Assembly: GCF_030433685.1 (NCBI RefSeq)
Contig: NZ_JAROCF010000001.1
Location: 434,001-498,000 of the forward strand
DNA: 64,000 bases
DNA from: Leifsonia williamsii
GTDB taxonomy: Bacteria; Actinomycetota; Actinomycetes; Actinomycetales; Microbacteriaceae
Reading direction: 5' to 3'
The notes beneath the pieces were generated by a model that saw nothing but the letters and a program-made list of their open reading frames with translations, was not told the origin of the DNA and did no database searches. Both the position numbers and the translations under genes were made by a program. Below are positions 24,594 through 47,026 of this stretch, piece by piece. Each line of letters starts with the position of its first letter. The first letter of the stretch is position 1.

Positions 24594-24633
24594 CAGGCGC
24601 AGAGCGCTGACGTCAGGCGCAGAGCGCTGACGT
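24594..24633. repeat. 20-bp perfect tandem duplication at a gene end
   Basis: CAGGCGCAGAGCGCTGACGT occurs twice in direct succession (24594-24613, 24614-24633). The second copy runs into the stop codon of the diguanylate cyclase gene. It contains AGCGCT and, across the join, GACGTC. It may be a slippage product. Confidence 0.9.
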
Positions 24634-25982
24634 CAGACGCCGACCGGCAGGGGCGCGTCCTCGCCGCCGAAGCCGCGCGCATCGACGATACGGTCGCCGC
24701 CGGCGTTCTTCGCGGTGTACATCGCCTGGTCGGCCAGCCGGATGAGCAGGTCCGGGTTCCAGGCCGAGGCGGCGGTGCGCGCGATCGAGAGGCCGATGCT
24801 GGCGCTGACCGGGAAGCCCTCCGGCAGGTCGTCGAACGGGCGGCGCACCTCGCGGCGGATGCGCTCCGCGACGTCGTGGGCGGCGATGCTGTCGGGCACC
24901 TCGCAGACGACCACGAACTCGTCGCCGCCGTAGCGGGCGACCAGGTCGTCGTGCCGCACGACGCCCTTGAGCCGCACCCCGACCTCCCGCAGCAGCAGGT
25001 CGCCCGCGTGGTGGCCGAGGCTGTCGTTGACCGCCTTGAAGCCGTCGAGGTCGATGAACATGACCGCCATGAGGGTCTCTGCCGCCTCCGCGTAGTCGGG
25101 CAGCAGCGTCTCGAGGAACCGGCGGTTGGCGAGGCCGGTGGTCTCGTCGTGCATCGCGGCGTGCTCCAGCTGCCGCTGCAGCCGCAGGCTCGTCGCGGTC
25201 TGGCCGGCCTGGCCGGAGAGCGCGTCCGCCAGCGGGGCGGCTTCGGCGTCGAAGGTGCGCGGGTGGAGGAAGAAGCAGACCCAGAGGCCGAACAGCTCGT
25301 CGTCGTGCCGGATCGGGGAGGCGAGCAACGCGTACACGCCGACCTCCCGGAACGCGCGGCCCAGCGCGGGCGACAGCTCCTCGGCCTGGTCGGCGCCGCT
25401 CAGCTTGACGACGCTGCGCAGCATCGACGCCTGCGGCGCCAGCGAGGTCAGATCGACCACGGCCTCCAGCGGGTTGCTGCCGGAGGTCTGCTCGAAGGCG
25501 CCGTGGTCGTCGAGCAGGAAGACGGCGGACTGCTCAGCGCCGTACGCCCGGGCGACGGTGGTGGCGAGGATGTCGGCCAGCTCGATCTCGGTCGTGGCGG
25601 TGGCGAAGGCGATGGAGGCCTCGATCACCAGCTCGAGCCGGTTGCGCGTGCGCTCCTCGAGCGAGCGGGAGCGGGTCAGGCGATCCTCGAAGGCCATGCG
25701 CTCCGTCGCATCCACCAGCACCACGAGCTGGCCGTCGGGCAGGGCGCTCCGTGTCGGCATCACCGCGCGACGACGGCCGTCGGCGCTCGCGAGACGCATC
25801 ACCGAGCCGTCGGTGGTGGCGCTCTTGGAGGGGCGAAGGAGGCTGTCGAGCGGCGTGCCGACGAGCTCCGTGAGCAGGCGGCCGGTCCACGCGGCGAAGA
25901 CGGCGTTCGCATCGACGATCGCGCCGGAGGCGTCGAGCTGGACGACCGCGCAAGGCAGGTCGTCCGCCGCCACTGACCGCAC
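24633..25982 (-). CDS. Soluble diguanylate cyclase, PAS-GAF-GGDEF
   Basis: 449 residues, no membrane segment. Residues 8-110 look like a PAS domain, 115-270 like a GAF domain, and 275-440 are a GGDEF domain. The active-site motif GGDEF is at 352-356, and the RxxD inhibitory site (RHDD, 343-346) is at the correct distance, so the enzyme should make cyclic di-GMP from two GTP and be product-inhibited. It starts at GTG with GAGGGAG upstream. It is followed (upstream on the map at 26075) by a phytochrome-type cyclase on the same strand, 92 bp apart. The sensed signal is unknown. Confidence 0.92.
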   Translation of the reverse strand: MRSVAADDLPCAVVQLDASGAIVDANAVFAAWTGRLLTELVGTPLDSLLRPSKSATTDGSVMRLASADGRRRAVMPTRSALPDGQLVVLVDATERMAFEDRLTRSRSLEERTRNRLELVIEASIAFATATTEIELADILATTVARAYGAEQSAVFLLDDHGAFEQTSGSNPLEAVVDLTSLAPQASMLRSVVKLSGADQAEELSPALGRAFREVGVYALLASPIRHDDELFGLWVCFFLHPRTFDAEAAPLADALSGQAGQTATSLRLQRQLEHAAMHDETTGLANRRFLETLLPDYAEAAETLMAVMFIDLDGFKAVNDSLGHHAGDLLLREVGVRLKGVVRHDDLVARYGGDEFVVVCEVPDSIAAHDVAERIRREVRRPFDDLPEGFPVSASIGLSIARTAASAWNPDLLIRLADQAMYTAKNAGGDRIVDARGFGGEDAPLPVGV

Positions 25983-26074: not shown

Positions 26075-28006
26075 CTAGCGCGAGGTGCGGTTGCGGCCGG
26101 CCTTCTTGGCCCGGTACATCGCCGCGTCGGCGGCGTCGAGCAGTTGCTTGGCGGTGTGGCCGTCCTCGACTGCGATCACACCGCACGAGGCGGTGATCGT
26201 CACGTCGCCGCGCTTGGTCTGCACGGGGTGCCCGATCGCCTCCACCAGGCGCGAGGCCACCCGGTCGCCTTCCGCCTCGGTGAGCCCGGCGCACAGCACC
26301 ACGAACTCGTCGCCCGCGAGCCGCGAGATGACGTCGGAGGCCCGGCACGCCTGCGTCAACCGGTCGGCGACGGCACGCAGCACGGCGTCTCCGGTCTCGT
26401 GGCCCTGACGGTCGTTGACCGACTTGAAGTCGTCGAGGTCGAGGAAGAGCAGCACGCCGCTCCTGCCCTGCACCACGACGTCCTCGAGCGCGCGCTCGAA
26501 CGAGCGGCGGTTGTGCAGGCCGGTGAGGTGGTCGATGAGGGCCAGCTGGGCGAGCCGCGCCTCGTCGCGCCGGTCGAGAGCGCGCGCCAGTTCGCGGCCG
26601 AGGTCGCGGGCCTCGCCGGCCGTGCGACCCCATGCGATGGCGCTGCCCTGCACGCTCTCGCGCCATTCGGAGAACGAACGCCGGGGCGACAGCGGAGTGT
26701 CGCGGTTGCTCGCCGTCTGGTCGCCGAGCCAGCGGATGACCTGGGCGGCCTCGCGGCGGAAGAACAGGAGGACGCCGTGGCCGGGGACCGGGATCACCAG
26801 CATCCCGGCGAAACCCGGGGTGAGGGTCGCGAGCGCCGGGTGCGTCCGGCCGATCTCGTCGGTGTGCAGCGGCTCGGTGCCTGCCGCCGCGAGCAGGATG
26901 CTCCGGTCGACCAGCGGTACGTCGCCGACGCTGCGGCTGACGCCGTCGAGGGCGAGGATCGCGCCGTCGGCCTCCACCAGCGCGCACAGCGCGTCGCCCT
27001 TCTCGCTCAGTTCGAGGAGGGGGTCGTCGGCCGAGGGGACGTCCGCGAGCACGGCCGCACGCCGCTCCCGCAGCGACAGGTCGTGCCGCAGCTCGGCGAT
27101 CGACTCCAGCGCCCCGAGCTGCACCGTGAGCTGGGTGGCCAGCACCTCCAGCGCGCGCCGCAGCAGGATCGGCATACGCCGCTCGGTGCGGTGCGCGCAG
27201 GTGATCATGCCGACGAGGCGGTCGTCGGCGATCAGCGAGAACGACACCGTCGAGGCCTGGCCCATGTTGCGCATGAACGCGAGGTGGTGCGGCGAGACGG
27301 CACGCAGCTCGGCGCTGCTGAGGTCGAGGGGAGGCGCGCCCGGGTCGCTGCCGACGAGCGGTGTGCCCGGGTCCTCGGTGCTGACGATCGCGCGCGACAG
27401 CTTGGTCAGGTAGAGCGACCGCGCCTGCTGCGGGATGTCGGAGGCCGGGAAGCGCAGCCCGCTGTACACATCCATCCCGGGCTCGGACGCCTCGCCGGCG
27501 ATCTCGCCGTGGCCGTCCTCGAAGAAGCGGTACACCATGACCCGGTCGAAGCCGCTGATGCGCTTGACCTCCTCGGCGGCGGCCTGGCGCAGCTCCTCCG
27601 CGCTGGTGAGCAGGCCCAGGGTGCGGATCGCGTTGACGACCGATGGCGTGCCGAGGTCGGGAGCGCCCTCCGCCGGCTCCAGCTCGATGATGGCGTTGTC
27701 GCCCACCCGGTGGATGATCGCGTCGAAGGGCCGGCCGCTCAGCTCGACCCGCACGGGGTCGCCATGCGAGTCGGCGGCGACGGCCCACTCCAGCGTCGGG
27801 CTGCCGAGCTCGGACACCGAGCGGCCGAGCCAGCGGGCGGCGTTCTCGCTCACCGTGACGATCTCGAAGGTGTTCACGTCGACTGCGAGCAGCACGCCGT
27901 GCGACTGGATGCGGCCCGGCGTCCGGATCGGCTCCTTGACGCACTCCTCCAGCCGCTGTCGCTCGGCGGAGTCCGCCACATCGGGTACGGCGGCGGAGTC
28001 ATCCAT
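26075..28006 (-). CDS. Bacteriophytochrome-diguanylate cyclase (PAS-GAF-PHY-GGDEF)
   Basis: 643 residues from the ATG at 28006; TAGGTT lies 6 nt upstream, fitting a leaderless start. The biliverdin-binding cysteine is C22, in the typical ECVKEPIRTPGRIQSHG context. The GAF domain shows PASDIPQQAR with its key Asp at 190 and the SPHHLAFMRNMG histidine motif. The PHY tongue has PRRSF (441-445). The C-terminal cyclase has AGDEF at 564-568 instead of GGDEF, a variant found in active enzymes, and an RxxD site at 555-558. Red/far-red light should therefore alter cyclic di-GMP synthesis. No heme oxygenase, needed for biliverdin, is in the window. Confidence 0.92.
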   Translation of the reverse strand: MDDSAAVPDVADSAERQRLEECVKEPIRTPGRIQSHGVLLAVDVNTFEIVTVSENAARWLGRSVSELGSPTLEWAVAADSHGDPVRVELSGRPFDAIIHRVGDNAIIELEPAEGAPDLGTPSVVNAIRTLGLLTSAEELRQAAAEEVKRISGFDRVMVYRFFEDGHGEIAGEASEPGMDVYSGLRFPASDIPQQARSLYLTKLSRAIVSTEDPGTPLVGSDPGAPPLDLSSAELRAVSPHHLAFMRNMGQASTVSFSLIADDRLVGMITCAHRTERRMPILLRRALEVLATQLTVQLGALESIAELRHDLSLRERRAAVLADVPSADDPLLELSEKGDALCALVEADGAILALDGVSRSVGDVPLVDRSILLAAAGTEPLHTDEIGRTHPALATLTPGFAGMLVIPVPGHGVLLFFRREAAQVIRWLGDQTASNRDTPLSPRRSFSEWRESVQGSAIAWGRTAGEARDLGRELARALDRRDEARLAQLALIDHLTGLHNRRSFERALEDVVVQGRSGVLLFLDLDDFKSVNDRQGHETGDAVLRAVADRLTQACRASDVISRLAGDEFVVLCAGLTEAEGDRVASRLVEAIGHPVQTKRGDVTITASCGVIAVEDGHTAKQLLDAADAAMYRAKKAGRNRTSR

Positions 28007-28110
28007 CACTCAAACCTAGTGCGTGCGCCCTGCATAACGCCTGTTGGCCCTGAATTCGCCGGCGCGCAAGCCCCTCCCCCGATCCTCACAGCGGACGGAG
28101 GGTGTTTCTC

Positions 28111-34691: not shown

Positions 34692-36356
34692 TCAGGGGCC
34701 CGTGGTGGGGGTGGCGGGAGGCTGGTTCGTGGACTCGGGGGCGGTGGTGCCCGTGGGCTCGGGCGACGGCGGGGGCGTCGTGGTCTCCTCCGGGGTCGGG
34801 GTGCTCTCGCCGCCGTTGCCTCCGTCGCCTCCGCCGCCCTGGTCTCCCTGATCCCCCGGAGCGGGAGCGGGCGGAGGTGCGGGCGCGGGCGCCGGGGATC
34901 CCTCGTCGCCATCGGTGCCTCCGTTGCCGCCCTGGTCGTCGTTCGGCGACGGCGTCGTGGGGGTGACCGCCGGCGCGGTGGTGCCGGGGGTGGGCCGGGG
35001 GCTGGTGGGAGCGACGTCCGGCGCGTTCAGGCTCGGCAGGAACGCGGCGAGCGCGACCGCCGCCGCGACCAGCACGATGCCGCCCGCGACGAGGGCAGCG
35101 ATCAGGCCGCGGCGCCGACGGCGAGGCCGGTCGCCATCGCCGCCGGTTCCTCCGCCTGCGTCATCTCCGAGGGAGCCGGTGGGAGGCGGGGGTGGGGCTG
35201 CGGCGGCGCCCGCTGCTGCTCCTGCGCCCGCGAGGCCGGCGGAGGTGATGGCGACCGTGGGGGCCGTGGGTGGATTCGAGGCTGCTGCCGCGGCGGTCTC
35301 GGTCGGTTCTCCCACGGTGGGCATGCGGCGCGTGACGTCGAGCGGTTCGGCGGCGCCGGCACCCGGCGCACCCGCTCCCGCAGCCGCTTCGGCGTCCTCC
35401 GCTCCGGCCGCTCCGGCCGCCAGCCCGGCGGCAGCGCCCAGCGCCGCCGCGCCCGCGACCCCGCCCAGACCGCCCGGCGTCGACTCCATCCGCTGGGTCG
35501 GCACGTCGACGGGCGCGGTCGGGCCGCCCCAGCCCTCGAGCTGCGGGCCGAGTTCGCGGGCGGCGACCGCCACCTCCAGCGCGGTCGGGCGCAGGTCGGG
35601 GTCGCGGGCGGTCATCGAGGCAAGGAGGCCGCGCCAGTCCTCGGGGAGGCCGGCCGGGATGCGCGGCTCGCGGGCCGCGCGGGCGGTCACCGCCTCCACC
35701 GGCGTGCCCGGGTACTCGGTCACACCGGTCAGGGTCTCCAGTGTCACGAGGCCGAGGGCGTAGACGTCGGCGGAGGGGCCGGGGTCCTTGCCCGTCGCCT
35801 GCTCCGGGCTGAGGTACGCGGCCGTGCCCATCACGAGGCCGGTCCCGGTCACGCGCTCGGCGCCGACCAGGTGAGCGATGCCGAAGTCGGCGAGCTTGAC
35901 CGGAGGGGCCGCGCCCGGGATGCCCGGCTCGCCGATGAGGATGTTCGCGGGCTTCAGGTCGCGGTGCACCATGCCGTGGTCGTGCACCACCACGAGCGCC
36001 TCCGCGATGCCCGCCAGCACCGCGACCGCCTCGGCCGTCGGCAGCCGGCCGCGATCGAGGCGGGTGCGCAGGTCCTCGCCGTCGACCAGCTCCATCACCA
36101 GGAAGCTCGGGGTCTCGTCGCCCGGCTCGGCCAGGTGCGCGTCGTAGAGGGCGACCAGGTGCGGGTGGCTCAGCCGGGCGAGCGAGGACGCCTCGCTGCG
36201 GCGGCGGAGGTCGTCGACCGCGGTGCCCGGATTGAACAGCTTGATCGCCACATCACGCCCGAGCTGCCGGTCGTAGCCGCGGTAGACGGTCGCCATGCCG
36301 CCGTGTCCGAGGCCGTCGCCGAGCTCGTAGCGGTCGAGAAGCACACGTCCATCCAC
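34692..36356 (-). CDS. Membrane Ser/Thr protein kinase (PknB-like)
   Basis: 554 residues from GTG 36356; TATGTT ends 7 nt before it, a leaderless layout (an ATG 4 codons earlier overlaps that box). The kinase domain fills residues 10-265: glycine loop GLGHGGMATVY, lysine at 39 (VAIKLF), HRDLKPANIL, and DFGIAHL. A Pro/Ala-rich linker leads to a basic stretch RPRRRRRG and one transmembrane helix (about 418-440). The outside part is Pro/Thr/Gly-rich with no PASTA domain. It probably senses something at the cell surface and phosphorylates cytoplasmic proteins. No phosphatase gene is adjacent. Confidence 0.9.
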   Translation of the reverse strand: MDGRVLLDRYELGDGLGHGGMATVYRGYDRQLGRDVAIKLFNPGTAVDDLRRRSEASSLARLSHPHLVALYDAHLAEPGDETPSFLVMELVDGEDLRTRLDRGRLPTAEAVAVLAGIAEALVVVHDHGMVHRDLKPANILIGEPGIPGAAPPVKLADFGIAHLVGAERVTGTGLVMGTAAYLSPEQATGKDPGPSADVYALGLVTLETLTGVTEYPGTPVEAVTARAAREPRIPAGLPEDWRGLLASMTARDPDLRPTALEVAVAARELGPQLEGWGGPTAPVDVPTQRMESTPGGLGGVAGAAALGAAAGLAAGAAGAEDAEAAAGAGAPGAGAAEPLDVTRRMPTVGEPTETAAAAASNPPTAPTVAITSAGLAGAGAAAGAAAAPPPPPTGSLGDDAGGGTGGDGDRPRRRRRGLIAALVAGGIVLVAAAVALAAFLPSLNAPDVAPTSPRPTPGTTAPAVTPTTPSPNDDQGGNGGTDGDEGSPAPAPAPPPAPAPGDQGDQGGGGDGGNGGESTPTPEETTTPPPSPEPTGTTAPESTNQPPATPTTGP

Positions 36357-36377
36357 GGCCCCCAACATACGCGCGGG

Positions 36378-40518: not shown

Positions 40519-41022
40519 CTACTGCCGCCCGCGGTTGCGGCGCCGGACCTCCCGCGGCGCGCGCCCTCCGACGAACGACGCCCCCGGGTCCACGACGAAG
40601 CCGCGGCGCAGCGCCTCCCGGCCGACCAGCATCTTGAAGCCCATCTGGTCGCGGTTGCTGAGCGTGGTCTCGGCGAGCACCGTGCGGCCGGCGAGCGTGA
40701 GCTCCAGGAGCACCACGATCCGCTCCTCCACGTGCCCCGACGAGCTGCGCACCTGCCGCCGGTCGTGCACGGCGCACTCGACCACGGTCGCGTCGGCGTC
40801 GGAGTCCTGCCACGGCTGCACGGTGAACCGCACCCGGTCGCCGGGGAGCTCCTCCACGTCGTACGCGTGCAGGGCCGAGCTGCGGGCGCCGGTGTCGACC
40901 TTCACCTTGATCCACGGCACGCCGATGGCGCCGAGCCCCGCCCATTCGCGCCAGCCCACCACGGTCGATCCGGCCGCCGCCGCCTCGCCCGCTGTGGTGT
41001 TTGAATGGGAGTCCTGAGCCAT
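40519..41022 (-). CDS. RimB-like retropepsin-fold protease (Zn_protease/PF05618 family)
   Basis: 167 residues. The DTGA motif (D43, in KVKVDTGARSSALHA) is the single aspartyl-protease active site of this family, followed by YDVEELPGDRVRFTVQPW and GREALRRGFVVDPG near the end. In Pseudomonas a protein of this family, RimB, trims glutamates added by RimK to ribosomal protein S6. The gene is divergent from a RimK-family ligase, 26 bp apart, so the pair very likely add and remove glutamate on the same target. CAAGAT lies 6 nt before the ATG. Confidence 0.82.
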   Translation of the reverse strand: MAQDSHSNTTAGEAAAAGSTVVGWREWAGLGAIGVPWIKVKVDTGARSSALHAYDVEELPGDRVRFTVQPWQDSDADATVVECAVHDRRQVRSSSGHVEERIVVLLELTLAGRTVLAETTLSNRDQMGFKMLVGREALRRGFVVDPGASFVGGRAPREVRRRNRGRQ

Positions 41023-41048
41023 CCCCCCATCTTGTCAGGAGCCTGAAG

Positions 41049-42257
41049 TTGAAACTCGCCATCCTCTCGCGCGCTCCGCAGTCGTACTCGACCGGTCGGC
41101 TGCGCGCGGCAGCGCTGGAGCGCGGGCACGACGTGAAGGTGCTGAACACCCTGCGGTTCGCGATCGACCTCTCGGGGGAGGAGCCGGACCTCCAGTACCG
41201 CGGCCGGCTGCTTTCGGATTACGACGCCGTGCTGCCGCGCATCGGCAACTCGATCACCTACTACGGCACGGCGGTCGTACGGCAGTTCGAGCAGATGGAC
41301 GTGTACACGCCGAACACCGCGAACGGCATCACCAACTCCCGCGACAAGCTCCGCGCCAACCAGATCCTGTCGCGCCACAACATCGGCATGCCCGCGACCG
41401 CCTTCGTCAACAGCCGCGCCGACGTGCGCATGGCGATCGAGCGGGTGGGAGGCGCCCCGGTCGTGATCAAGCTGCTGGAGGGCACGCAGGGCATCGGCGT
41501 CATCCTCGCGCCGGAGGCGAAGATCGCGGAGGCGATCGTCGAGACGCTGCACTCGACCAAGCAGAACGTGCTCATCCAGAGCTTCATCAAGGAGAGCCGC
41601 GGCCGTGACGTCCGCGCGCTCGTGGTCGGCGACCGCGTGGTCGCGGCGATGCGGCGGGTGGCGAGCGGCGACGAGTTCCGCTCCAACGTGCACCGCGGCG
41701 GCACCGTCGAGAAGGTCGACCTGTCGCCCGAGTACCAGGAGGCCGCGGTGCGGTCGGCGCAGATCATGGGCCTCCGCGTGGCCGGCGTCGACATGCTCGA
41801 GGGCAACGACGGCCCGCTCGTGATGGAGGTGAACTCCTCCCCCGGGCTGGAGGGCATCGAGCGCGCGACCGGGCTCGACGTCGCCGGCGCGATCATCGAC
41901 TTCATCGACAACCAGGTCGCCTTCCCCGAGATCGACGTGCGGCAGCGGCTCAGCGTCTCGACCGGCTACGGGGTGGCCGAGCTGCTCGTGCACGTCAACG
42001 CCGACCTGGTCGGCCGCACGATCAAGGAGACCGGGCTCTGGGAGCGGGACATCACCGTCCTCACCCTGCACCGCGGCACGACGGTCATCCCGAACCCGCG
42101 CAGCGGCGTGAAGCTCGAGCCCGGCGACCGCCTGCTCTGCTTCGGCCGGCTGGAGGAGATGCGCTCGATGATCCCGGACCGCCGCAAGCGCCGCACCAAG
42201 GTGCGCAAGCTCCCGAAGGACCAGCTCCCCGCCCCCGCGCCGGCCCCCACCGAGTAA
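41049..42257 (+). CDS. RimK-family glutamate ligase fused to a TrkA-C/RCK_C domain
   Basis: 402 residues from TTG 41049, chosen because AGGAG lies 7 nt upstream and no ATG or GTG is near. Residues 1-290 are an ATP-grasp ligase of the RimK type (LKLAILSRAPQSYSTGRL, KLLEGTQGIGVIL, and metal-binding VMEVNSSPGLEGIE at 258-271). Residues 306-376 form an RCK_C (TrkA-C) domain: LVGRTIKETGLWERDITVL, HRGTTVIPNPRSGVKLEPGD and RLLCFG. RCK_C domains sit on ion-transport regulators and some bind cyclic di-AMP. The ligase should add glutamate to a protein or peptide; the extra domain may make it respond to a small ligand. Confidence 0.87.
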   Translation: MKLAILSRAPQSYSTGRLRAAALERGHDVKVLNTLRFAIDLSGEEPDLQYRGRLLSDYDAVLPRIGNSITYYGTAVVRQFEQMDVYTPNTANGITNSRDKLRANQILSRHNIGMPATAFVNSRADVRMAIERVGGAPVVIKLLEGTQGIGVILAPEAKIAEAIVETLHSTKQNVLIQSFIKESRGRDVRALVVGDRVVAAMRRVASGDEFRSNVHRGGTVEKVDLSPEYQEAAVRSAQIMGLRVAGVDMLEGNDGPLVMEVNSSPGLEGIERATGLDVAGAIIDFIDNQVAFPEIDVRQRLSVSTGYGVAELLVHVNADLVGRTIKETGLWERDITVLTLHRGTTVIPNPRSGVKLEPGDRLLCFGRLEEMRSMIPDRRKRRTKVRKLPKDQLPAPAPAPTE

Positions 42258-44795: not shown

Positions 44796-45541
44796 CGACC
44801 GACCTGACCGGCCGCCGCGCGGTGATCACCGGCGGCGCGAGCGGGATCGGCGCGGCCTGCGCCTCCGCCTTCGCCGCCGCCGGAGCGAGCGTGGTCGTCG
44901 CCGACCTCGACGGTCCCGCCGCCGAGCGCGTCGCCGCCGACATCGGCGGCGAGGCCTGGCAGGTCGACCTGGCCGACACCGCGGCCCTCGCCGACCTGAC
45001 GCTGGAGGCCGACATCCTCGTCAACAACGCCGGCATCCAGCGGGTGAGCCCGATCGTCGACTTCGACCCGGCCGACTTCGCGCTGATCCTGCGGCTGATG
45101 GTGGAGGCGCCGTTCCTGCTGCTGCGGGCGGCGCTGCCGGGGATGTATGAGCGCGGCTGGGGCCGGGTGATCAACCTGTCGAGCGTGCACGGCCTCCGCG
45201 CCTCCGCCTTCAAGTCGGCCTACGTCACCGCCAAGCACGGGCTGGAGGGGCTCTCGAAGGTCACCGCGCTGGAGGGCGCCGAGCACGGCGTCACCAGCAA
45301 CTGCATCGACCCCGGGTACGTGCGGACGCCGCTGGTGGAGCGCCAGATCGCGGACCAGGCACGTGTCCACGGCATCCCGGAGGCGGAGGTGCTCGAGAAG
45401 GTGATGCTCACCGAGTCGGCGATCAAGCGGCTCGTGGAGCCCCGTGAGGTCGCGAGCCTGGCGCTCTGGCTGGCGGGCGACGACGCCGGGATGGTCACCG
45501 GCGCGAGCTACACGATGGACGGCGGATGGAGCGCGCGGTGA
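44792..45541 (+). CDS. bdhA: 3-hydroxybutyrate dehydrogenase (SDR)
   Basis: 249 residues from GTG overlapping the transporter stop (GTGA). SDR motifs: TGGASGIG (13-20), NNAGIQ, serine at 130, Y144-x-x-x-K148 (SAYVTAKHG). NAGIQRVSPIVDF and CIDPGYVRTPLVERQIADQ are close to known bacterial D-3-hydroxybutyrate dehydrogenases. It converts 3-hydroxybutyrate to acetoacetate with NAD. The neighbouring CoA-transferase then activates acetoacetate. Confidence 0.88.
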   Translation: MTTDLTGRRAVITGGASGIGAACASAFAAAGASVVVADLDGPAAERVAADIGGEAWQVDLADTAALADLTLEADILVNNAGIQRVSPIVDFDPADFALILRLMVEAPFLLLRAALPGMYERGWGRVINLSSVHGLRASAFKSAYVTAKHGLEGLSKVTALEGAEHGVTSNCIDPGYVRTPLVERQIADQARVHGIPEAEVLEKVMLTESAIKRLVEPREVASLALWLAGDDAGMVTGASYTMDGGWSAR

Positions 45542-46377
45542 GCATGACGACGACGGGCAGGGCCACGACGGGCACGACGACGGGCATCGACAAGGTCGTC
45601 GCCTCGGCGTCGGAGGCCGTCGCCGACATCCCGAGCGGCGCCTCCCTCGCGGTCGGCGGCTTCGGCCTCTGCGGCACCCCGATGGCGCTGATCGAGGCGC
45701 TGCTCGCGACGGGCGTCGACGGGCTGTCGGTCGTCAGCAACAACTGCGGGGTGGAGGACTGGGGGCTCGGCGTACTGCTCGGCGCGCGGCGCATCGCGAA
45801 GATGACCTCCTCGTACGTCGGCGAGAACAAGGAGTTCGAGCGCCAGTACCTCAGCGGTGAGCTGGAGCTCGAGCTCACCCCGCAGGGCACGCTCGGCGAG
45901 AAGCTGCGCGCCGGCGGCTCCGGGATCGCGGCCTTCTACACGCAGACCGGCGTCGGCACGCAGGTGGCCGAGGGCGGCCTCCCGCGCCGGTACCACCCGG
46001 ACGGGACGGTCGCCGTGGCGTCGCCGCCCAAGCCGGTCGCCACCTTCGACGTCGAGGGCGAGCCGCGGGAGTTCGTGCTCGAGGAGGCGATCACCACCGA
46101 CTACGCGCTGATCCACGCGGAGGTGGGCGACCGCCACGGCAATCTGCGCTTCCACGCCTCCGCCCGCAACTTCTCGCCGCTCGCCGCGATGGCGGGACGC
46201 ATCTGCATCGCGCAGGTGGAGCGGCTGGTGGAGCCGGGAGAGCTCGCGCCCGACGACATCCACCTCCCCGGGGTGTTCGTGCACCGTGTGGTGGAGGTGG
46301 GAGACGTGGAGAAGCGGATCGAGCGCCGCACGACCCGGCCGGACGCCACCGCTGCCGCAGCCGAGAGGACCTCCTGA
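45538..46377 (+). CDS. scoA: 3-oxoacid CoA-transferase subunit A
   Basis: 279 residues from GTG 45538, which overlaps the previous stop and has GGATGGAG 6 nt upstream; an ATG two codons later is possible. Typical motifs: [21 protein letters not shown] near the start, [14 protein letters not shown], and the G-G-x-G-I-A-A-F-Y-T segment. With subunit B it moves CoA from succinyl-CoA to acetoacetate. The N-terminus has a Thr/Gly-rich run ([13 protein letters not shown]). It is the third gene of the operon. Confidence 0.9.
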
Positions 46378-46378
46378 C

Positions 46379-47026
46379 ATGCCCCTGACCCGCGACCAGC
46401 TCGCCGCCCGCGCCGCCCTGGAGCTGCCGGACGGCGCCTACGTGAACCTCGGCATCGGCCTCCCGACGCTCATCCCCAACCACCTCCCGCCGGGCCGGAC
46501 CGTGGTGCTGCAGTCCGAGAACGGCATCCTCGGCGTCGGACCGTACCCGGAGGAGGAGGCGGTCGACCCCGACCTGGTGAACGCCGGCAAGGAGACGGTC
46601 ACCGTGCTGCCCGGCGCCGCCTTCTTCGACTCCGCGCTGAGCTTCGGGATGATCCGCGGCGGCAAGATCGACGCCGCGGTGCTCGGCGCTATGCAGGTGT
46701 CCGCGACCGGAGACCTCGCCAACTGGATGATCCCCGGCAAGATGGTGAAGGGCCCCGGCGGCGCGATGGACCTCGTGCACGGCGCCCGCCGCGTCATCGT
46801 GCTCATGGAGCACACCGCGCGCGACGGCTCGCCGAAGATCGTGGAGCACTGCACCCTCCCGCTGACCGGCCGTGGCGTGGTCGACCGCATCATCACCGAC
46901 CTCGCCGTGATCGACGTCACGCCCGCGGGCCTCGCGCTGATCGAGCTGGCGCCCGGCGTCACCGAGGAGGAGGTGGTCGCCGCGACGGCCGCGCCCCTCC
47001 GCCTCCCCGCCCACGCCTCGCCCTGA
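46379..47026 (+). CDS. scoB: 3-oxoacid CoA-transferase subunit B
   Basis: 215 residues; the ATG is 1 bp after the subunit A stop. The catalytic glutamate is E47 in [24 protein letters not shown] and the GNWMIPGK-like segment ([19 protein letters not shown]) are standard for this subunit. Last gene of the ketone-body operon. Confidence 0.92.

Follow-up and report, generated by a model that had tools for sequence, protein, structure and literature searches.

A ligase gene of the RimK type that carries an added RCK_C domain, and a divergently transcribed gene for a RimB-like protease, form a conserved gene unit in the stretch of the Leifsonia williamsii genome analysed here (64,000 nucleotides, hereafter the window) and in its relatives. 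The reading that we prefer, and to which we give about even credence, is that the two enzymes write and erase glutamate chains on a target other than a glutamate tail of ribosomal protein S6, with the RCK_C domain acting as regulator or dimeriser of the ligase and with something other than a cyclic dinucleotide as the general signal. The pair is laid out in the window as follows.

40519..41022, minus strand: RimB-like, retropepsin-type protease gene (167 aa, ATG start, PF05618)
40885..40896, minus strand: DTGA motif, protease residues 43-46, with the putative catalytic Asp
41023..41048, no strand: 26-bp gap between the divergent genes, containing the AGGAG of the ligase gene
41049..42257, plus strand: RimK-RCK_C ligase gene (402 aa, TTG start)
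41049..41330, plus strand: Rimk_N pre-ATP-grasp domain, ligase residues 1-94 (Pfam PF18030, 118.6 bits)
41340..41906, plus strand: RimK ATP-grasp domain, ligase residues 98-286 (Pfam PF08443, 202.9 bits)
41910..41972, plus strand: linker, ligase residues 288-308, the most conserved part of the ligase
41973..42164, plus strand: RCK_C (TrkA_C) domain, ligase residues 309-372 (PF02080, 39.9 bits against a cut-off of 27)
42165..42254, plus strand: basic C-terminal tail, ligase residues 373-402, as read from the sequence; relatives keep the basic part

The preliminary description had recognised a RimK-type ATP-grasp ligase, an added TrkA-C/RCK_C domain at about residues 306-376 and, 26 bp away on the other strand, a retropepsin-like protein with a DTGA motif, and the Pfam matches bear out all three; the span quoted there (40519-42257) takes in both genes. 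By its PF02080 match, ligase residues 309-372 are an RCK_C domain, and PF05618 covers protease residues 21-152 with 83.3 bits (cut-off 27), the DTG motif being present. The TTG start follows an AGGAG (41037-41041) at a spacing of 7 nt and is backed by a gap-free alignment with solved RimK chains from residue 1 on. Solved Pseudomonas RimK chains align without gaps over ligase residues 1-288 (336 and 330 bits), as does a solved E. coli RimK chain over residues 1-289 (298 bits). The solved RCK_C chains of KtrA, KtrC and KhtT gave only weak profile matches to the RCK_C domain (E 0.015-0.07). Among NCBIfam models, the ligase scores 251.7 bits against the RimK alpha-L-glutamate ligase family model TIGR00768 (cut-off 143.4) and 331 bits against the S6-L-glutamate ligase model NF007764, whose printed cut-off is 331. 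The protease reaches 77.3 bits with the RimB equivalog model NF052261, under its cut-off of 200. Its DTGA motif recurs in 106 of the 107 RimB-like neighbours found, the remaining one having DSGA, and by analogy with D31 of RimB the Asp of this motif would be catalytic. Elsewhere in the window lie a gene on the minus strand (34692-36368) for a protein with a serine/threonine protein kinase domain, the C-terminal half of which is long, of low complexity and rich in Pro, Gly and Thr, and two CoA-transferase genes (PF01144) side by side on the plus strand (45526-47026).

The fusion itself is more than chance, because in each of three homologue searches PF02080 is annotated on every one of the best 120 of 8000 scored homologues and because the RCK_C domain is under purifying selection. 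In uncorrected medians of pN/pS for the ligase against 80 homologues, the two RimK domains gave 0.188 and 0.198, the linker (288-308) 0.083 and the RCK_C part (309-376) 0.343, so that constraint is weaker on the RCK_C domain than on either RimK domain. The linker also ranks highest in conservation across 29 proteins, with a mean frequency of the commonest residue of 0.95; one sequence (L112) went into this comparison without its first 237 residues, which slightly depresses the values of the RimK part, and the linker stays on top. Ten residues, namely R333, D334, T339, R342, G343, P348, P350, D360, R361 and C364, are invariant in 29 of 29 proteins.

To survey the class, 394 genomes were searched with a query that ran from the last part of the ATP-grasp domain through RCK_C and had to match in full. 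The fusion was found in 29 of them, comprising 13 of the 21 genomes of the window's own family (f1), two of f4, one of f9 and 13 of f34, and in all 29 a PF05618 gene adjoins the ligase gene, which upholds the earlier proposal that the two genes belong together. In fact, PF05618 occurs in just one further genome of the 394 (G345), where the gene shares its strand with a neighbouring RimK that is not fused. Within f1, 13 genomes carry both genes and eight carry neither. The divergent orientation is equally constant: the window has it, and so do all 28 small loci taken from the remaining fusion genomes and all 80 named loci. The latter are the best 80 of 510 and come mostly from Curtobacterium, Agromyces and Leifsonia, which suggests an origin of the window in Microbacteriaceae. 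Similarly, 19 of 20 larger regions, which come from genomes already counted, are divergent, and G345 is the one that is not.

In many relatives a third gene, with an AstE/AspA-type catalytic domain, adjoins the protease gene on the protease strand. PF04952, tried as the AstE/AspA model, did not fit this gene, and PF24827 was used instead. Strong PF24827 matches (E <= 3.4e-37) were obtained in 17 of 52 genomes, of which one is G345 and the other 16 belong to the 29 with the fusion. The 16 include all 13 genomes of f34, both of f4 and G375 of f1; the hydrolase gene adjoins the protease gene in 13 of the 16 and lies 2.6-7 kb away in the other three. By contrast with these, none of the 22 genomes without a ligase-protease pair had a strong match, G380 giving weak ones only, and a profile search of the window's genome returned no PF24827 match. 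Within the 3-kb flanks of the best 80 of 510 named loci the single convincing copy is in L079, a contig from a metagenome-assembled genome labelled Propionibacteriaceae, which holds the three-gene set and a ligase 84% identical to that of the window. A weak AspA match in L068 was discounted, as it spans 82 residues and overlaps rimB. AstE/AspA enzymes cleave N-acyl amino acids.

The target most naturally expected of a RimK enzyme, and the one named in the preliminary description, is S6. S6 ends in ...GDSEE in E. coli and in ...DNADE in Pseudomonas (PMC11957791). Among the 30 genomes that pair RimK with RimB, 29 of them with the fusion and G345 with an unfused ligase, no S6 ends in Glu, as compared with two of 22 comparison genomes (L176, L179), and the S6 of the window's genome ends in ...AARKAATSEKASA. 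S6 was therefore rejected as the likely target. The S6 of G375 (L160), an f1 genome, carries an extended Ala- and Glu-rich tail whose last residue is Lys. It is unlikely, in our estimate, that S6 is nevertheless modified by a ligase that accepts a C-terminus not ending in Glu. A ligase score that equals the printed cut-off of the S6 model favours an enzyme of the S6 type, and hence argues against the reading that we prefer, and several S6 tails in the family are long and look mobile; however, the lack of a Glu end in 30 of 30 S6 proteins is joined by the observation that S6 stops right after its conserved core in 13 of 13 f34 genomes, every one of which has all three genes. Pseudomonas RimB is reported to require runs of five to six Glu, which it cuts on any carrier protein, the S6 fold being dispensable, and the authors of that work consider that RimK may serve other functions where S6 lacks a terminal Glu (PMC11957791). 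Another possibility is that the ligase makes a small glutamyl metabolite that the AstE/AspA enzyme and the protease recycle, which would agree with the activity of AstE/AspA enzymes on N-acyl amino acids and with the presence of the hydrolase gene in the genomes of 16 of the 29 pairs. Other RimK relatives make coenzymes, as reported in the same paper, but RimB-type proteases act on glutamate runs, which a small product would not contain (PMC11957791), and 13 of the 29 fusion genomes have no hydrolase gene; we regard this possibility as quite improbable.

The preliminary description had further proposed that glutamylation may be controlled through the RCK_C domain by a nucleotide second messenger or the ion state, and the second-messenger part is mostly not supported. 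RCK_C domains are recognised receptors of c-di-AMP, with the signature (I/L)(I/L)x2DxRx5N(I/L)(I/L) (PMC10117811). At the D, R and N of this signature the ligase has G329, W331 and T336, as placed by an alignment with S. aureus KtrA that is weak (E 0.32). The absence of the signature is by itself not decisive, because BusR, which binds c-di-AMP (PMC8517857), departs from it too, with N, W and T at these positions, so that the W and the T are common to BusR and the window's RCK_C domain. All 13 f1 proteins have W at residue 331, where most others have R, and we infer that W331 is the counterpart of Trp159 of BusR, a coupling residue outside the pocket. The genomic evidence is the stronger. The DAC domain (PF02457) gave no match in the window's genome and none across the 21 f1 genomes, of which 13 carry the fusion, in a search whose control was positive in 11 of 14 known genomes, and these absences contradict c-di-AMP as a signal in the window's family. 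Outside f1 the domain is present in 16 of 16 fusion genomes and in 30 of the 31 genomes of the same search. For GGDEF (PF00990) no match was found in 11 of the 29 fusion genomes and only weak ones in three more f1 genomes, and neither DAC nor GGDEF was found in four of the 29 (G094, G168, G289 and G382). Therefore neither nucleotide is the general signal, unless the models miss the synthesising enzymes. The window's genome has two GGDEF matches in all, both in the window and about 13-16 kb from the ligase gene.

24633-25982, minus strand: gene for a GAF-GGDEF protein (PF00990), adjoining the second GGDEF gene
26075-28009, minus strand: gene for a PAS_2-GAF-PHY-GGDEF protein of the bacteriophytochrome type (PF00990)

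Because of these two genes c-di-GMP is a possible signal in this particular genome; as a general signal it falls with the 11 fusion genomes in which no GGDEF was found. The same evidence bears on the view that c-di-GMP controls the ligase through its RimK core with RCK_C as a bystander, a view modelled on Pseudomonas RimK, which is stimulated by c-di-GMP and not by c-di-AMP (PMC7343187). We consider it very unlikely on account of those 11 genomes, despite the two GGDEF genes near the ligase gene. That RCK_C instead binds c-di-AMP and so couples S6 glutamylation to this nucleotide is, we believe, extremely unlikely. Its standing as a receptor domain, the DAC genes in every one of the 16 fusion genomes from other families and the two residues held in common with the binder BusR argue for such coupling; against it are the 21 f1 genomes without a DAC match, the window's own included, the G, W and T at the signature positions, the S6 proteins without a terminal Glu and the missing response of Pseudomonas RimK just mentioned. 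Moreover, just two of six RCK_C domains of S. venezuelae bind c-di-AMP (PMC10117811). A purely structural RCK_C domain, holding dimers or tetramers together and sensing nothing, strikes us as somewhat unlikely. RCK_C domains do dimerise (PMC8517857), RimK is a tetramer (PMC10092738), and RCK_C is the less constrained half of the ligase. The invariant polar residues (R333, D334, R342, D360, R361 and C364, in 29 of 29 proteins) and the near-invariant linker suggest, however, more than mere glue would need. To our knowledge many RCK_C domains have no known ligand, which would suit a structural role.

Taken as a writer and eraser of alpha-linked glutamate chains, which remains our preferred reading, the pair would operate as follows. 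RimK-RCK_C would ligate glutamate with the use of ATP, as its membership in the RimK family predicts; the RimB-like retropepsin would cut long glutamate runs and, by analogy with Pseudomonas RimB, may also steer the ligase; and in many relatives the AstE/AspA hydrolase may complete the set, perhaps by trimming the remaining glutamates or by acting on the glutamyl product. The acceptor is probably another protein or a small molecule, or there may be none and the chains free, rather than the glutamate tail of S6. RCK_C, attached by the near-invariant linker, most probably makes the ligase dimeric and adjusts it in response to an ion or a metabolite. The evidence for this reading consists of the domains, the strict pairing, the three-gene set in relatives, also on a single strand in four loci of other classes, the placement of the fused ligases in one tree group, the purifying selection, the cyclase domains not found, the S6 proteins without a Glu end and the indifference of Pseudomonas RimB to the carrier protein, and from it the ligase activity, target, ligand and direction of control are inferred. 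Counting against it, in addition to the S6 model score, are the protease score under the NCBIfam RimB cut-off, the weaker constraint on RCK_C and the nine of 15 loci from other classes with no partner found in the flank, described below.

Several known systems resemble this one in part. Pseudomonas RimABK consists of the RimK ligase, the retropepsin-like protease RimB and the c-di-GMP phosphodiesterase RimA, and shares with the window the RimK core and an adjoining gene for a PF05618 protease with the DTG motif. It differs in that its genes form an operon (PMC10092738), whereas here the genes are divergent and RCK_C is fused to the ligase, S6 has no Glu end and an AstE/AspA gene occurs in many relatives. 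In the RimBK hybrid of Desulfotalea psychrophila, RimB is fused to the N-terminus of RimK, likewise a RimK chain with a partner domain, and the protease is active on polyglutamylated S6 and no ligase activity on S6 was seen (PMC11957791); here it is RCK_C that is fused, at the opposite end of RimK, and the protease has a gene of its own. The RimK of E. coli has the RimK core in common but no RCK_C, and its gene stands alone (PMC10092738). The c-di-AMP-binding proteins KtrA, KtrC, KhtT, BusR and Streptomyces CpeA share RCK_C by Pfam; unlike them, the carrier here is an ATP-grasp ligase, the KtrA-type signature is absent and no DAC match was found in the family. Among open-licence papers, the subscription literature being mostly outside our scope, none was found on RimK with TrkA-C/RCK_C or on RimK in Nocardioides. 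Similarly, a search for RimK with aspartoacylase found no open-licence paper on bacterial gene clusters, and one for RimK with ATP-grasp and desuccinylase gave only work on malonylation, judging by the entries of the papers.

In 396 genomes from across the phylum the full fusion was found 22 times, and 15 of these genomes belong to other classes; near relatives of one such fusion carry the labels Nitriliruptoraceae, Egibacteraceae, Acidimicrobiales and Acidimicrobiia. For the flanks of the 15 loci the tblastn queries were the protease of the window and a single AspA, a search that distant copies may escape. Four of them (L240, L241, L242 and L245) have the single-strand order RimB-AspA-RimK-RCK_C, L244 has RimB-RimK-RCK_C-AspA and L239 has a divergent RimB without AspA; the other nine, one of which is a 3.3-kb contig, had neither RimB nor AspA in the flank examined. 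Therefore the ligase can stand without RimB and AspA close by. Of five unfused loci, L254 reads RimB-RimK-AspA and four are without RimB and AspA. Two genomes, G571 (L250/L257) and G690 (L251/L256), hold a fused and an unfused RimK together. In a tree of 42 fused and nine unfused ligases, every fused one lies on one side of a single branch (100/100), and therefore a single origin fits; this branch is long, long unfused sequences were flagged, and two truncated fused sequences (L224 and L228) were omitted. No fusion was seen on plasmids: a RimK match occurs in 44 plasmid records, but in each it spans less than 80% of the query, and none extends past residue 302. Conserved antisense reading frames over the ligase or hydrolase genes (L199:8048-8833 and L203:4936-6264) were dropped, having no Pfam match, as was a second RCK_C-like match on contig C11 of G176 (L204:51-425).

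A more specific version of the non-ribosomal reading, which we put forward as doubtful, is a reversible poly-alpha-glutamate system in which potassium, sodium or some other osmotic cue is sensed by RCK_C. Glutamate is a usual counter-ion of potassium. If this were true, an osmotic cue would set, through RCK_C, the amount of glutamate locked into chains, and the RimB-like protease, together with the AspA-type hydrolase in many relatives, would release it again. More generally, the usual target and signal molecules do not fit the system described here, and therefore both target and signal look new. So far the understanding of RimK and RimB has been shaped by S6 and c-di-GMP in Pseudomonas; the RimK-RCK_C group spans several classes of one phylum, in hosts without a fitting S6 end or messengers. 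It thus raises the question of what else RimK and RimB act on, which is already in print (PMC11957791), and that of which signal RCK_C domains respond to if not c-di-AMP.
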